64,000 bases of DNA, from NCBI RefSeq assembly GCF_017695975.1, contig NZ_JAAORN010000001.1:1-64000 (forward strand), written 5' to 3'. The DNA is from Prochlorococcus marinus CUG1417 (lineage in GTDB: Bacteria > Cyanobacteriota > Cyanobacteriia > PCC-6307 > Cyanobiaceae). Shown here piece by piece: positions 139 to 57,135 of the stretch (the first letter of the stretch is position 1; the number at the start of each line of letters is the position of its first letter). The translations under genes were made by a program, and so were the position numbers. Below the pieces are notes generated by a model that saw only the letters and a list, made by a program, of their open reading frames with translations, was not told where the DNA came from and made no database searches.

Positions 139-1296
139 ATGGAGATTATTTGTAATCAAAATGAGTTAAATAATGCTATACAACTAGTAAGTAAAGCAGT
201 TGCTTCGCGTCCAACTCATCCAATTCTTGCAAATATCCTTTTAACAGCTGATGAAGGAACGAATAAAATTAGTTTAACTGGATTTGACCTTAACCTCGGA
301 ATTCAAACTTCTTTTGATGGAACTGTTAAAAATAGTGGTGCTATTACGATCCCTTCAAAACTTTTATCTGAAATAGTTAACAAATTACCTAATGAAACTC
401 CTGTATCTTTGGAAGTAGATGAGAGTTCAGACAATATTTTAATAAAAAGTGATAGAGGTTCTTTTAATCTTAAAGGGATCCCCTCTGATGATTATCCTAA
501 TTTGCCATTTGTTGAAAGTGGTACTTCTTTAAATATTGACCCTAGTTCTTTTCTAAAAGCTTTAAAACATACAGTTTTTGCTAGTAGTAATGATGATTCA
601 AAGCAATTACTTACAGGGGTTAATTTTACTTTTAAACAAAATTACTTGGAGTCAGCATCCACAGATGGCCATAGACTGGCAGTTGCTTTAATTGGCAATG
701 AAGATTACCTAGATAATAAAGATAAATCATCTTCCAATATAGATGATTTATCAGTAACTATTCCAACAAGATCATTAAGAGAAATTGAAAAACTGGTATC
801 TTTAAGAAGCTCAGAAAATCCAATAAAGCTCTTCTATGATAAAGGTCAAGTAGTTTTTATTTCATCAAATCAGATAATCACAACAAGAACTCTTGAAGGT
901 AGTTACCCTAATTATTCACAATTAATTCCCGATAATTTTTCTAAGATTTTTAATTTTAATACTAAAAAATTAATTGAAGCATTAGAAAGAATTGCTGTTT
1001 TAGCCGATCAGCAGAGTAGCGTTGTTAAGATTAAATTGGATAATACAGATTTAGCTTCAATCAGTGCTGATGCACAAGAGATAGGAAACGCAAATGAATC
1101 AATCCCTGTTTCTAATTCTGATGAAAATTTTGATATCGCATTTAACGTTAGATATCTATTAGAAGGTTTAAAAGTTATTTCCTCTGAAAATGTACTTTTA
1201 AAGTGTAATCTTGCAACTACTCCAGCTGTTTTTGTTCCTGAAGATAATCTAAACTCTTTTACTTATTTAGTGATGCCTGTGCAGGTTCGTTCTTAA
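139..1296 (+). CDS. dnaN: DNA polymerase III beta subunit (sliding clamp)
   Basis: Encodes a 385-residue protein whose length and sequence fit the beta clamp, which forms a ring dimer around DNA and tethers replicative polymerase. The open frame extends upstream to a GTG at 115, but the ATG at 139 (MEIICNQNEL) begins exactly where clamp proteins normally begin, with the first helix-strand of domain 1, so I chose it. The C-terminus ends in the usual clamp pattern with a YLVMPVQ strand, part of the partner-binding pocket. It is followed one base later by a PRC-barrel gene, then purL and purF, probably one transcript. Recognition is from family knowledge and is secure; only the start is open. 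Confidence 0.97.
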   Translation: MEIICNQNELNNAIQLVSKAVASRPTHPILANILLTADEGTNKISLTGFDLNLGIQTSFDGTVKNSGAITIPSKLLSEIVNKLPNETPVSLEVDESSDNILIKSDRGSFNLKGIPSDDYPNLPFVESGTSLNIDPSSFLKALKHTVFASSNDDSKQLLTGVNFTFKQNYLESASTDGHRLAVALIGNEDYLDNKDKSSSNIDDLSVTIPTRSLREIEKLVSLRSSENPIKLFYDKGQVVFISSNQIITTRTLEGSYPNYSQLIPDNFSKIFNFNTKKLIEALERIAVLADQQSSVVKIKLDNTDLASISADAQEIGNANESIPVSNSDENFDIAFNVRYLLEGLKVISSENVLLKCNLATTPAVFVPEDNLNSFTYLVMPVQVRS

Positions 1297-40442: not shown

Positions 40443-42245
40443 TTAATAGCTAGCACCAGTTTTACGGTGATGAACTGCGGTTAGACTATCGGAGTTTAGT
40501 ATATTACCGTGTAGTACTTCAGCGTATATTACCCAATGATCCCCACATTCCATTCTCTCTTTTACTGAAGCGTCTAACCACGCTAAGGATTCAGGAATGA
40601 TTATTTGTTCATTGGGAGTTAATTCAATATCTAAACCTTCAAATCTATCTTCTCCTGGCGCAAAGGGTTTTGTAAATCTTTTCAGAGGTTCTTTAAAATC
40701 TTTTTCACTGAGAATATTTAATGCGAATGAATCTCCTATTTGCAGAAGAGACTCTACCGATCTATCTTTTGCTACTGCAATACTTAATCCCGGAGGAGAA
40801 AAACTTGCTTGACTAACCCAAGATGCAAGCATAGCCCCTTTGATATTATTCTCATCTTTGCCTTTAGAGGCAGTTAGAACGCAGAGTGAGCCAATTACTC
40901 TTCCAAGAGCTTGTAGCTTTGGATCCGTTTTGCTTGTAATCATTCCAGTATCTGATTTTCTGGGTTTTTTCTTTGCTTTTTTTATAATTTTTCTTCCAAA
41001 GTGAGTTCCTATTTCTTCTAGCTCTTTAATTTTTGGTTTATTTGGACTGAATTTAATTCTTATAGGTTCAAAACTAAACTTAAAACCACCATCTTTTAAT
41101 TTTGTTTCAAGTAAATCTATAGCTTCGCCGCTCCAGCCAAAACTACCAAAAATTCCAACTGGTTTATCTCTATTACCCTCTGATAATAATGTGCCTAGTG
41201 CACTTACTATTGGAGTTGGGGCGTGACCGCCTAGTGTTGGTGATCCTATTAAATATCCATCAGCGTTTTGGATAGATTTTATAAGTGCATCATTTGGTGT
41301 AAATTCACAATTTATACTTTCAACTTCGACAGAAGTTCTATTTATCCCTTTAGCCAATGCATCACCTATTGAGGCTGTATTTCCATATGCACTTGCATAT
41401 ATCAGAGCTATCTTAGGATTATTTCTTGAGAGATTTTCACCCCATCTAATGTAGTCATTTAAGAAGCTTTTTAAGCTATATTCGATAGCGGGACCATGTA
41501 ATGGTGCAATAGTTTTAATGTCGTAATCTGCAATTTTTTCAGTTATTGATACTACTTGATTAGACATTGGTGCCATCAAGCAATCATAAAAATGTTTCCT
41601 ATCAATTTCTGTGCTAACTCGATTTGTTTCAGACCATTCTGTAGAAGCAATATGAGCAGAGAAAATTTTTTCACTTAGAAGAATTTCTTGATTACGTTCA
41701 TAAATTATCAGGCCCCCAGGCCAACGTGCTGTTGGAATAGGAATTAACTCTAGTGAAATGTTATCTAATTCTAAATTATGTTCTTTTTTGATTATGTTTA
41801 TTTCAGGTAAGTCAATTTCAACGAAGTCTTTTAATTTAGGATTTCTTTGATTCCAAAGTTCGCTAATAAGTTTATAACCTGGATTCGAGCAAGTAATAGT
41901 TGTGTTTTTAAATTGGGTGCTTATATTTTTTATGGTTTCAATGATTTGGGGATTAATATGACCAGAAATAAAGTTGATTTTATTTAATTTAAATTGATCG
42001 CAAAACCTAGAAATTACTTTATTAAATGAATTTAAATATTGTTTCTCAGGGGGATGAATAATAAAAAGTTCTTCATGACTTCTAATGAAAAAAGTATTAA
42101 AAGAGGTTCCTTTTTCAAGGTTAAATTCAAGTTCAAATCTTTCTTTATTTTGGTCTAAAAATCTTACACAAGAAAAATTTTCGCTAATTTCAAATTCTGA
42201 TAAGTTTTGATTTTCAGCTAGTAAGCCTATATTAATATCTGACAT
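40443..42245 (-). CDS. flv1: Flavodiiron protein, Flv1-like (non-canonical diiron site)
   Basis: Encodes 600 residues in three domains: metallo-beta-lactamase-like (about 1-260), flavodoxin (about 275-420, IALIYASAYGNTASIGDALAKG) and C-terminal NAD(P)H:flavin reductase (about 440-600, LGRVIGSLCVLTASKG). The iron-ligand motif that reads SHTEPDHSG in the neighbouring paralogue is replaced here by SGHINPQII, so key His/Glu/Asp ligands are missing, as known for Flv1 and Flv2. Flv1/Flv3 heterodimers reduce O2 with photosynthetic electrons without making ROS. A clean TATAAT lies 130 bp upstream. Confidence 0.9.
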   Translation of the reverse strand: MSDINIGLLAENQNLSEFEISENFSCVRFLDQNKERFELEFNLEKGTSFNTFFIRSHEELFIIHPPEKQYLNSFNKVISRFCDQFKLNKINFISGHINPQIIETIKNISTQFKNTTITCSNPGYKLISELWNQRNPKLKDFVEIDLPEINIIKKEHNLELDNISLELIPIPTARWPGGLIIYERNQEILLSEKIFSAHIASTEWSETNRVSTEIDRKHFYDCLMAPMSNQVVSITEKIADYDIKTIAPLHGPAIEYSLKSFLNDYIRWGENLSRNNPKIALIYASAYGNTASIGDALAKGINRTSVEVESINCEFTPNDALIKSIQNADGYLIGSPTLGGHAPTPIVSALGTLLSEGNRDKPVGIFGSFGWSGEAIDLLETKLKDGGFKFSFEPIRIKFSPNKPKIKELEEIGTHFGRKIIKKAKKKPRKSDTGMITSKTDPKLQALGRVIGSLCVLTASKGKDENNIKGAMLASWVSQASFSPPGLSIAVAKDRSVESLLQIGDSFALNILSEKDFKEPLKRFTKPFAPGEDRFEGLDIELTPNEQIIIPESLAWLDASVKERMECGDHWVIYAEVLHGNILNSDSLTAVHHRKTGASY

Positions 42246-42374
42246 TTTAAAGACTTATTTTCTAGTTTTAATTTGCGACTTATTAGTCGAGAAGTGGTGT
42301 CATATTGACTTTCAACGGATTTTCAACTATCGACCAGAACATTTAGTTCTTGTGAAACCGTTATTTATCAATCG

Positions 42375-42380
42375 ATTATA
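42375..42380 (-). promoter_or_regulatory. Perfect -10 hexamer (TATAAT) upstream of the flv1-like gene
   Basis: On the minus strand TATAAT lies about 130 nt before the flv1-like start, preceded by GG (extended -10 look). No good -35 is visible at 17-bp spacing. It would give the flv1-like gene its own start site separate from flv3. This is inferred from the motif only. Confidence 0.42.
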
Positions 42381-42451
42381 CCTATAACAGCACCATTAAT
42401 GAGTTGTTAAATGTAGGGTTTTCAACTGGAACGCGATATCTTTTTGGTTAT

Positions 42452-42598
42452 CTAAACAAATTGATGATATTTATACATTTTCCTATAATCGTCATGCAAT
42501 CTTTCTGTTGCTAATTTTCTATTCTTCATTGCGTCTCTAATCAAATCTATTTCATGGAAGTTTTGATTGAGAATAGTGAAAGGAGTAATGAGTTTCAT
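42452..42598 (-). CDS. 48-residue small protein with strong Shine-Dalgarno, between flv genes
   Basis: ATG at 42598 (minus strand) begins MKLITPFTILNQNF and ends ...DDYRKMYKYHQFV, 48 residues. It is basic, amphipathic and without membrane span. AGGAGGT lies 3 nt upstream (42608-42602), much stronger than at most genes here. A regular helical middle (EIDLIRDAMKNRKLATERL) and the SD support a real gene. I recognise no family. It is flanked on the same strand by flv3 (284 bp upstream) and flv1 (207 bp downstream). Confidence 0.65.
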   Translation of the reverse strand: MKLITPFTILNQNFHEIDLIRDAMKNRKLATERLHDDYRKMYKYHQFV

Positions 42599-42601
42599 AA
42601 G

Positions 42602-42633
42602 ACCTCCTGTATCTACACTTATATTGTCCTCCT
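42602..42633 (-). promoter_or_regulatory. Two strong Shine-Dalgarno sequences in tandem
   Basis: AGGAGGT (42608-42602) serves the 48-codon ORF. A second, AGGAGGA (42633-42627), lies about 25 nt further upstream; the only start codon at normal distance from it is a GTG immediately followed by TAG. It may be a decoy or ribosome standby site, or a start-stop element; that is speculation from spacing. Confidence 0.5.
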
Positions 42634-42730
42634 TTTTACTTGAAATTCATAGGCTATTTCTACCCGAGTATTAGTGCTTTGTGGTTGTTACGACTATCAT
42701 TTTCCATTTAGTAGGAGTAGAAATAATTCA

Positions 42731-42806
42731 GGAGTCAAAAGCACTTCATCGACTTTGTGGACAGCGAGGTGCATACGACTCGAAGAGGGCAAAGAAATGC
42801 CCTCTT
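42731..42806. ncRNA. Structured segment with nested stems and a perfect 9-bp hairpin (candidate RNA element)
   Basis: In the spacer between the flv genes, GAGTC (42732-42736) pairs with GACTC (42777-42781), enclosing GCACTTC (42741-42747) with GAGGTGC (42766-42772, one G-U). Next comes a perfect 9-bp hairpin, AAGAGGGCA (42783-42791) with TGCCCTCTT (42798-42806), loop AAGAAA. The segment is much more G+C-rich than nearby spacers. The direction is undetermined; no T-run follows on plus, and on minus it lies in the leader of the 48-codon ORF. It may be an sRNA, leader or attenuator. Confidence 0.45.
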
Positions 42807-42881
42807 ATAAATTAAAAAAAATATTTGCTATTTGAGTTGAGTGATATCAAGTAGTCTCAAAACTCTATTTGAAAAGTCTAA

Positions 42882-44657
42882 TCAATAGTGATTAGCAACT
42901 TTTCTGTGATGAACTGCTGTCTTGCATGATAAGTCAGAAACATTACCATTTTCAACAACCCCATAAATTATCCAATGGTCTGGAGTCTCTAGTCTGGAAC
43001 TAACTTTGCAATCTAAAAAGGCGAGTGAATCTGAGAGAACTGGTCCACCTTCAGCGATGTTGCTAATTACATCTACATCCGCAAATCTATCAGCTCCAGG
43101 GGCAAATCTTTTTAGAAAATGTCTGAACATTTTTTGATAGTTATCTTCTCTCAAAATATTCACAACAAAACCTTTCCCAACTTGCATATATGATTCAATA
43201 GCTCTATCTTTTGCTACTGCAACTGTAATACCAGGTGGAGAAAAGCTTGCTTGACTAACCCAACTTGCGACCATTGCACTTTGTCTAAATGTAGAACCTT
43301 CGCCTTGGCTCGCTGTAACTACATATAATCCTCCACTTAATCTCCCTAACGCTTTATCTAAATTTGAATCAAGGCTCTTCATAGAGGCAATATTCTTCTT
43401 TTTATTGATCAATTGACCCAAGTCAGTTCCGGCTTCTTCGAATTTTTGATAAACAATGGGATCTGGAATATTTTTAACTCTCAAGGGAGAGAAAGCTTCT
43501 TTTTGACCAAGTTCTCTTAATTTATTTGCTAAGGAATCTATTGGTTCATCATTTCCACCAAATGCATCATAAACTGCAGTAAATTGTTTTGGTTTTAGTG
43601 CTGCAAATAAAGTACCGAGAGATTCTTTTAATTCGTTATCTGAGTCTACTGGCCATGTGGGAATGACTACTGCTTTTGATTCGGAAATTAAACTTGTTAA
43701 TTCTTGCGGGTCAGAAGATCTTAAATCAATTAATTGAACCTGCGCATCTGCTTTGCTTATTCCATGAGATATAGCTTGACTTAGTCGATCACAATAACCA
43801 TAGTCGCTTATATAGCAGACTGACACAAAATCATTGCCTTTGCTTTTATTACTACTCCATTCTAGATATTTTCCTTTCCAAAAATTGACCTGATTATGGA
43901 GCAAAGGCCCATGACCAACAGCTATTGTTTTTAATTCAGGTAGCTTATCTATTCTTTTAATTGCCTGCATAACGCTTCTAGCGTTTGGACCCATAAGGCA
44001 ATCGTAATAAAAACGGAAATCATCGTATATTTCTTTTTGATCAGCGTCAAAAAATTCGTCAGAACAATAATGTAGTCCAAATGCATCGCATGTATAGAGA
44101 ACATTTGTGCTGTGATCATATGAAAAAATGGTATCTGGCCAATGTAAATTTGGTGCGCTTATGAATTCAATATTATGTTCTAAACCACTATTAGGATTAG
44201 TTCCGAGATTTAAAAACTCTCCACTCTTAACCTCTAGACGTTTAAAAGGAATATGTATTTGGTCTTCAATAAATTTAAGTGCTAATTTCGATCCAACTAC
44301 TGTAATATTTTGGTTTAATTCTAAAAGATTACCTATTAAACCAGAATGATCAGGTTCTGTGTGGCTAGTAATTAGATAATCAACTTCTTGCGGATTTACC
44401 TTTTTAAGTAATTCTTCAAACCATAATTTTTCGAACTTTGCGTGACTAGTATCAATAATTGCTAGTTTCTCGCCTTTAATAATAAAACTATTGTAAGTAG
44501 TTCCATTTCTCAAACCAAATTCAATATCAAATCTACTGCGATCCCAATCCAAAGATCTTATGGCACAAGAATCATCAGCAAAGTTTTGAGATTGAACCGT
44601 CAACTTGTTATTAGTTTGTGCCAATTTTGAATTACTTGTCTGGGCAGAGGCTATCAT
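42882..44657 (-). CDS. flv3: Flavodiiron protein, Flv3-like (canonical diiron site)
   Basis: Encodes 591 residues with the same three-domain order as the Flv1-like paralogue: metallo-beta-lactamase (about 1-260), flavodoxin (about 270-420, VCYISDYGYCDRLSQAISHG) and flavin reductase (about 430-591, LGRLSGGLYVVTASQG). The diiron motif is intact: ITSHTEPDHSGL, with later DTSHAKFEK and AVGHGPLLH. It fits the Flv3 group, which pairs with Flv1 for light-driven O2 reduction. The 636-bp spacer to flv1 is unusually long for this genome. Confidence 0.9.
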   Translation of the reverse strand: MIASAQTSNSKLAQTNNKLTVQSQNFADDSCAIRSLDWDRSRFDIEFGLRNGTTYNSFIIKGEKLAIIDTSHAKFEKLWFEELLKKVNPQEVDYLITSHTEPDHSGLIGNLLELNQNITVVGSKLALKFIEDQIHIPFKRLEVKSGEFLNLGTNPNSGLEHNIEFISAPNLHWPDTIFSYDHSTNVLYTCDAFGLHYCSDEFFDADQKEIYDDFRFYYDCLMGPNARSVMQAIKRIDKLPELKTIAVGHGPLLHNQVNFWKGKYLEWSSNKSKGNDFVSVCYISDYGYCDRLSQAISHGISKADAQVQLIDLRSSDPQELTSLISESKAVVIPTWPVDSDNELKESLGTLFAALKPKQFTAVYDAFGGNDEPIDSLANKLRELGQKEAFSPLRVKNIPDPIVYQKFEEAGTDLGQLINKKKNIASMKSLDSNLDKALGRLSGGLYVVTASQGEGSTFRQSAMVASWVSQASFSPPGITVAVAKDRAIESYMQVGKGFVVNILREDNYQKMFRHFLKRFAPGADRFADVDVISNIAEGGPVLSDSLAFLDCKVSSRLETPDHWIIYGVVENGNVSDLSCKTAVHHRKVANHY

Positions 44658-56652: not shown

Positions 56653-56806
56653 TTTGCAAGATTCGATTTTTTAATAAGATAAATTAATTTAAAACTTATC
56701 TTCTCAGTATTTATACTTATAAAATTAAAAAAATTCTTTTTAATACAAGCATTTGCAGCAATATTTACAAACTAATAAATTATCTATTACAACTTCTTAG
56801 TTATTT

Positions 56807-56834
56807 TAAAAAAAGTGGAGTCCTTCCAGACTCC
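56807..56834 (-). terminator. Rho-independent terminator of ssrA
   Basis: On the minus strand GGAGTC (56834-56829) pairs with GACTCC (56822-56817), loop TGGAAG, followed by ACTTTTTTT. This is a standard intrinsic terminator and marks the 3' end of the tmRNA precursor. Confidence 0.85.
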
Positions 56835-57070
56835 TCGTATCATTTGGTTGATAAGGCTGATATAACCCCATCTCCTTTAGGATCAAGCAGCAACTGGTGC
56901 TGTTTGACGGGAGAAACTAACGATTTTGTTAGCATTTGTGTTTTTGCTCTAACCGAGCCGGCTTCAGTCACCTTCCTTATGCCCCGTCGAAACCATTACA
57001 ACCCCAAATAGTGGAGTTGAGCGGAATCGAACCGCTGTCCGAAACATCGGTTGAGATCACCTAGTCCAAT
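56807..57070 (-). ncRNA. ssrA: Two-piece (permuted) tmRNA
   Basis: The acceptor RNA comes first on the minus strand: a T-arm AGCGG-TTCGATT-CCGCT (57036-57020) and the 3' acceptor half CAACTCC with discriminator A (57012). The genome continues CTA, so CCA must be added. The coding RNA starts at 57005 with GGGGTTG, pairing with CAACTCC, then GGTTTCGACGGGG. The tag frame (56933-56883) reads ANKIVSFSRQTAPVAA-stop. This permuted order is known in Prochlorococcus and marine Synechococcus. tmRNA frees stalled ribosomes and tags proteins. The exact mature 5' end of the acceptor piece is estimated. Confidence 0.95.
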
Positions 57071-57082
57071 TGGACATTTATA
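57064..57082 (-). promoter_or_regulatory. Candidate ssrA -10 element and 12-bp palindrome
   Basis: TATAAA at 57082-57077 (minus strand) fits a -10 element, placing transcription start near 57070. Right at that point is the perfect palindrome GTCCAATTGGAC (57064-57075), which may be an operator or a 5' hairpin of the tmRNA precursor. No clear -35 is seen. Confidence 0.4.
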
Positions 57083-57135
57083 TTCTGACAGGCAAAATGG
57101 TTATTGAATAGTTTTTTTACTAAGTTTTATCGTAT

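Follow-up and report, generated by a model that had tools for sequence, protein, structure and literature searches.

The long spacer between two flavodiiron protein genes of Prochlorococcus marinus CUG1417 is, in our reading (to which we give a probability of roughly 60%), a dispersed two-gene cassette, composed of a small RNA (sRNA) gene on the plus strand and a divergent small-protein gene, that was inserted between flvB and flvA. The repetition of this DNA at multiple sites, the coding selection on its open reading frame (ORF) and the compensatory structure of its RNA, biased toward the plus strand, are observed, and low-light relatives show the same layout with another small protein. The spacer occupies positions 42246-42881 (636 bp) of the window, i.e., the whole stretch of 64,000 nucleotides that was analyzed, and both flanking flavodiiron genes lie on the minus strand; the name flvA follows the preliminary description and the domain make-up of the protein. 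The features referred to below are:

40443..42245, minus strand: flvA, flavodiiron protein gene (context)
42375..42380, minus strand: TATAAT, promoter-like site of flvA, conserved in flv-linked loci
42452..42598, minus strand: 48-codon ORF, type A of the MKLxTPF small-protein family (dN/dS, paralogues)
42603..42608, minus strand: AGGAGG, putative Shine-Dalgarno (SD) sequence of the small ORF (CCTCCT on plus), which precedes nearly all listed family ORFs
42620..42633, no strand assigned: AT-rich box reading TATATTGTCCTCCT (AGGAGGACAATATA on the minus strand), the "second SD", conserved in 53 copies
42634..42808, plus strand: structured RNA, 5' end inferred (match of model R1, 42618-42812)
42649..42682, plus strand: helix P1 of 15 pairs, whose loop reads CCGA in the majority of copies, with a G-U strand bias
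42732..42781, plus strand: hairpin P2, GAGUC/GACUC and GCACUUC/GAGGUGC (helices 2-4 of the 53-copy structure), with a paired base loss
42783..42806, plus strand: terminator-like 3' hairpin followed by a U-rich tail, at the outer boundary of the cassette (helix 5)
42882..44657, minus strand: flvB, flavodiiron protein gene (context)

Both flv matches were found on one contig in 65 of 75 genus genomes, among the matches listed. The match ends are only 24-31 bp apart in 48 of these 65 congeneric pairs, corresponding to genes about 20 bp apart, and in the presumed MED4 genome 17 bp separate the flvB stop from the flvA start codon; the other 17 pairs are long (312-5573 bp between match ends). The 636-bp spacer had been called exceptional, and it is indeed unusual with respect to these relatives. 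Since its sequence repeats elsewhere and 48 of the 65 pairs are nearly spacerless, the spacer is best regarded as an insertion between two closely spaced genes. At the flv site, cassette copies that are decayed or deleted (L084, L093, L015) suggest a single old insertion, followed by losses. Genome G051 was rejected as a clean empty site, as locus L015 retains both cassette ends and therefore represents a deletion instead. The flv spacers of L008, L009, L010, L011 and L104 are longer, with an extra gene between the RNA hairpin and flvB, for example MFVSIDLCLVPIGVG... or MKILIASLILGASFPV..., and the insert of L009 carries TTTTCAACGGATTTTCAACTAT close to both its ends.

Of the 60 other genomes of the genus, 54 contain DNA that matches the spacer, although in a few the match is confined to the flvA-proximal end. 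Its own genome holds a further copy of the central part at C2:15911-16267 (92%) and a partial copy at C1:123666-123760. The outer edge common to most copies is the hairpin at 42783-42806, beyond which the sequences differ. With model R1 the RNA is detected, at one to five copies per genome, in 61 of the 75 genomes of the genus and in 21 of the 23 that are near-complete, and model R2, which covers the 3' part of the RNA, matches in 22/24 genus genomes and 21/276 other family genomes, both models necessarily matching the sequences they were built from; the R2 matches outside the genus belong mostly to one low-light genus, and many are weak (E up to 1e-3). Upstream of the ORF, on the opposite strand, an R1 match of at least 100 bits is present at 62 of the named type A loci, of which the best 80 of 86 were considered, and the 18 without a strong RNA comprise eight with a weak match and ten with none. 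Solo RNA copies, with no ORF, occur in the presumed MED4 genome (L049) and at L065. The flanks of 55 RNA copies form 24 downstream and 22 upstream groups, and 76 type A flanks, from the same best 80 of 86 loci, form 23 groups; these counts are rough, because even the flv site falls into two separate groups downstream. Being found at many unrelated genome places, the cassette is probably no switch for neighbouring genes.

The small ORF with its AGGAGGT, as first described, is present at 42452-42598 (minus strand) and, judged from the purifying selection in its frame, is a real protein-coding gene. For type A, dN/dS is 0.164 (bootstrap 0.10-0.25, 26 unique ORFs) in a set that holds only ORFs stop-free in their first 44 codons and is thus biased against pseudogenes; the other frames give 1.45 and 1.02 (shifted) and 3.17 (antisense). 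The corresponding values are 0.095 for type B (22 ORFs) and 0.37 for type C (just 10 codons of 9 genes). The two SDs that had been pointed out are likewise there, both reading AGGAGG, the second 25 nt further upstream (plus-strand CCTCCT at 42628-42633), and a box with two SD-like motifs precedes the members of the family, whose N-termini are mostly MKLxxxF or MRLxxxF. Paralogues in the same genome are an ORF at C2:16122-16265 and a type B ORF (C1:123494-123673), and each of seven genomes examined contains 5-8 family matches. More broadly, members of the family, as defined by profile A2, are present in 105 of the 300 Cyanobiaceae genomes sampled and in 32 of the 59 genera; type A is found in 15 of those 300, all of its own genus (15/24 there), and the named type A loci (best 80 of 86) all come from Prochlorococcus or uncultured picocyanobacterial records. 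The cassette proteins are predicted to be soluble, with 48-60 aa and a maximum Kyte-Doolittle mean over 19 residues of 0.39 among five proteins. Two chimeric small ORFs were also seen, one with an unrelated N-terminal half and a type B Cys tail (L033) and another with a type B start and a type A-like end (L139). Furthermore, eight family ORFs (L046, L049, L050, L055, L060, L062, L074, L095) are preceded by a second, unrelated kind of leader, TTCCT(A/C)AAACC, without the cassette RNA.

The RNA, of about 180 nt, starts with P1, a long hairpin; a linker that carries AGGAGU motifs comes next, then P2 and the terminator-like 3' hairpin, and the RNA includes a conserved, mostly unpaired stretch around UAGGAGUAGAAAUAA. 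The nested stems of the preliminary description proved well founded: the segment 42684-42812 folds with z of -4.12 on the plus and -4.08 on the minus strand, and its stems are kept over 53 copies. Folded as single minus-strand sequences, two other segments are no stabler than shuffles: 101 nt that surround the SDs (z 1.59) and 195 nt that precede flvA (z -0.49). In alignment A3, with 53 of the 55 nonredundant plus-strand copies (the shortened L064 and the remnant L093 were left out), a structure of 40 pairs has 87.5% of its cells paired, a value reached by 0/500 shuffles, and pairing falls to 35-49% in slid-partner controls; the covariation score is 0.137 vs. 0.112 shuffled and at most 0.072 slid, again reached by 0/500 shuffles. 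By two other counts, pairs with double changes (16 vs. 15-21) and further pair types (51 vs. 43-51), the structure stays within the range of the slid controls. Double changes affect 7 of the 9 pairs of helix 5, and helix 3 has lost one base on both sides in four copies, possibly in one event. As for the window copy, one pair of P1 is broken, the terminator tail TTATAAAT is weak and poor in U, and a consensus scan reported no terminator there. A coding role of the RNA region, e.g., as a plus-strand ORF of 44 aa, was rejected, with the best frame open in just 16/53 copies and with paired deletions of single bases.

Among the cells of P1 that can pair on one strand only, 205 are G-U and 7 A-C, which implies that P1 forms far better on the plus strand, these cells being inherited and thus not independent events; accordingly counted, 90.3% of P1 cells are paired on plus vs. 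65.2% on minus. RNAalifold, run with RIBOSUM scoring and lower weights on 41 nonredundant rows (of 64 with more than 72% identity, from 70), gave, over 40 column shuffles, a z of -7.24 for the plus strand and -3.64 for the minus strand, and -4.53 and -0.31, respectively, for the SD region. This set of 70 copies excluded hits starting beyond leader base 30, contig-end hits and duplicates; a minus-strand hairpin, GGGTA/TACYC, has G-U at one pair in 46 of the 70. Compensatory structure was thus found on one strand, the plus strand, with the exceptions of GGGTA/TACYC and of the slid-control counts given above.

Six of the nine low-light loci that were read (L150, L151, L153, L154, L156, L158) carry an unrelated 61-aa ORF divergent from the RNA, which begins M[AST]CGxxFKHAIEDVKETFSKSCG.... 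From its start to the AGGAGUC motif of the RNA there are 136 nt at two loci and about 370 nt at four; the ORF start in the high-light loci compared lies 130-132 nt from the same motif. L155 and L157 yielded no such 61-aa ORF, and the motif search did not succeed at L152. Alignment A4 combines 33 of the 53 copies with three low-light copies. In g76 (L116, L155), P2 retains its stem with another loop, and other bases form the pairs of the terminator stem. As low-light RNA copies adjoin the unrelated 61-aa ORF, the RNA is kept while the protein differs. Some low-light copies, namely L113 2360-2424 (minus) and L115 437-501 (plus) and 199-261 (minus), lie near the Cyano-1 sRNA, and in L115 a glutamine-II riboswitch is also nearby.

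A TATAAT ahead of the flv gene had been noted as well; it stands at 42380-42375 on the minus strand, 130-135 nt before the flvA ATG, and it is conserved, GGTATAAT being present in 22/22 flv-linked cassette loci and in two decayed ones. The consensus promoter scan did not report this site, which has no good -35 element. The same scan detected no sigma-70-like promoter at the AT-rich box in either direction; we take this box as a putative divergent promoter region. The insertion would uncouple flvA from flvB, so that flvA would then depend on its own TATAAT, a possible side effect on flv rather than a sign of a dedicated regulator.

The locus was initially proposed to regulate electron-sink expression. 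The ORF, the RNA structure and the promoter-like site of that proposal are real and conserved in relatives, though not as an flv feature, and what falls away is their role in flv control. Flv-specific regulation was rejected by the repeat search together with the flv census: the same RNA and ORF recur in many other contexts, most copies lying elsewhere, 48/65 flv pairs have no such spacer, and the structured RNA is on the strand opposite flvA and reads away from it. The flvA neighbourhood is the largest single context group (22 of the 80 type A loci, best 80 of 86), with a constant spacing to flvA and a conserved TATAAT, but a regulatory locus for flv expression is nevertheless highly improbable. 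Comparably remote is a MITE-type DNA repeat that is not transcribed and whose hairpins serve mobility. It would agree with the sharp outer edge and the dispersed copies; the strand-biased G-U pairs, however, are expected of RNA and not of DNA, the ORF is under purifying selection, and neither flanking direct repeats nor matching terminal inverted repeats of at least 10 nt occur in the window copy (42430-42830, the one copy searched).

The main rival, kept because GGGTA/TACYC gives a minus-strand signal, is that the conserved structure belongs to the 5' leader of the small-protein mRNA, as a riboswitch or attenuator that would control translation by alternating CUCCU and AGGAGG. In the majority of copies the structured region immediately precedes the ORF, GGGTA/TACYC shows G-U, G-C and A-U states on the minus strand, and 42684-42812 also folds stably there. 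Nonetheless, the poorer pairing of P1 and the near-zero z of the SD region on the minus strand speak against it, as do the solo copies L049 and L065 and the sequences upstream beyond the hairpin, which are unrelated between copies and thus offer no shared promoter; we consider such a leader unlikely, though less so than the other alternatives. A type I toxin-antitoxin-like locus, in which the plus-strand RNA would be the antitoxin of the divergent small protein, is less probable still. TisB/IstR is a divergently arranged pair of this kind, and the cassette resembles it in that a small ORF adjoins a structured RNA gene and the two recur in genomes; several copies per genome and the occurrence in islands and other variable contexts would also fit, and such systems were proposed earlier for Yfr6/Yfr14 and Yfr8/Yfr9 (PMC2518516). 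The cassette differs in that none of the five proteins has a hydrophobic stretch and any antisense pairing to the mRNA is hypothetical; in addition, the RNA exists without the ORF and the ORF without the RNA. The dispersed cassette with a plus-strand RNA thus remains our preferred explanation.

The suspicion that the spacer holds an undescribed element was sustained as regards the RNA, which has no Rfam match and for which no described family was found. Rfam 15 yielded a single match in the window, the tmRNA at 56818-57091; four matches to the RNA element at E up to 10, all far below gathering; and, for six other RNA loci, only the neighbouring Cyano-1 and glutamine-II. The tmRNA gene, at 56792-57101 (minus), is of the permuted type. 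In the presumed MED4 genome, the single R1 copy (1348207-1348397, plus) coincides with none of the positions in the Yfr8-Yfr21 table (Table 1 of PMC2518516), and identity with Yfr8/Yfr9 was rejected on position and on the lack of relevant similarity in the Yfr8/9 region. The literature covered, with sRNA lists up to Yfr21, contained no description of the RNA or the protein family; the RNA may already be recorded, as a transcript, in later lists (Yfr22 onward). Yfr6/Yfr14 and Yfr8/Yfr9 are pairs of non-coding RNAs of Prochlorococcus MED4 (Steglich et al., 2008, PMC2518516) and resemble the cassette in combining a structured RNA with a short peptide ORF on opposite strands of a small locus, partly in islands, but the RNAs of those pairs overlap. 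Yfr1, Yfr2 and Yfr10 are picocyanobacterial sRNAs (PMC6778093, PMC2190773), none of which is matched by the cassette RNA as an Rfam family; hypothetically, its AGGAGU motifs could in principle pair with the ACUCCU of Yfr1/Yfr10. The idea of a Yfr1 sponge built on this complementarity is unsupported, since the pattern ACTCCTCACACC has no match in the own genome.

Several family proteins end in a tail that recalls CP12. The spacing C-x3-P-x4-C-x2-Y is that of the CP12 tail, the loop that binds GAPDH. In the alignment, types B and C end in C-x3-P-x4-C-x2-Y and Cys replaces Tyr in type D; a Cys tail is therefore present in three of the four protein types, the type A of the window being without it. 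In PDB, profile A2 scores best against three CP12 chains (E 0.4-0.64), CP12 ranks third for the wider profile A1 (E 0.32), and a profile comparison by hhalign gives E 4.6e-4 at a probability of just 33%. The Pfam model of CP12 (PF02672) matched 0/10 A2 members and 0/4 typed proteins, and a canonical CP12 gene is separately present in 12 of 13 genomes, that of the window among them. Types B and C thus share the tail spacing of CP12, but the family proteins lack its N-terminal part and the tail similarity is weak.

The family extends to phages. Cyanophage P-TIM68 (KM359505.1) has a type C gene of 51 aa with the CP12-like tail, annotated as hypothetical (L096, 1414-1569, plus), after a heat-shock protein gene and separated from the DNA polymerase gene by two hypothetical genes; it has an SD, and no cassette RNA was seen there. 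In phages P-SSM2 and P-SSM5, sites annotated hsp20 or hypothetical are partly similar to the N-terminal region of the family (E 4e-3). Leader DNA had no match in the phage collection, and the two matches of profile A1 in viral contigs were rejected as chance, both being out of frame within other ORFs. A type C gene of the presumed MED4 genome (L099, 627532-627687, plus) lies just upstream of the published position of Yfr14 (627811-628062).

Putting these elements in order, the cassette would have entered the flvB-flvA pair in a single group of Prochlorococcus of the high-light type. The sRNA gene and the small-protein gene would share the AT-rich box by the ORF start as a divergent promoter, from which the plus-strand RNA would be transcribed to end at its own 3' hairpin. 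This RNA may be a small regulator that acts either in trans or upon the divergent mRNA, with the unpaired stretch around UAGGAGUAGAAAUAA as its likely contact region, no target being claimed. The small proteins may adjust the activity of host enzymes; those with a Cys tail could do so by binding GAPDH in the manner of the CP12 tail, and flvA would merely be uncoupled from flvB and use its own promoter. It is also conceivable, albeit doubtful, that these loci represent a new class of dispersed RNA-microprotein cassettes in which the RNA is kept and the microprotein is swapped between clades, with the Cys-tailed, phage-shared proteins as mini-CP12 docking factors that tune carbon or electron flow in infected or stressed cells.

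Prochlorococcus genomes are streamlined, with few regulators. If the cassette is what we propose, its RNA, seen in 61 of the 75 high-light genomes sampled and in general facing away from a small-protein gene, would be a widespread, unassigned candidate regulator of a phototroph that is abundant, and a phage-shared family with a CP12-like tail would provide a testable link to how carbon fixation is controlled in infected cells. Where a compact genome has a long spacer, this can thus be a cassette, and not a control element of its neighbours.
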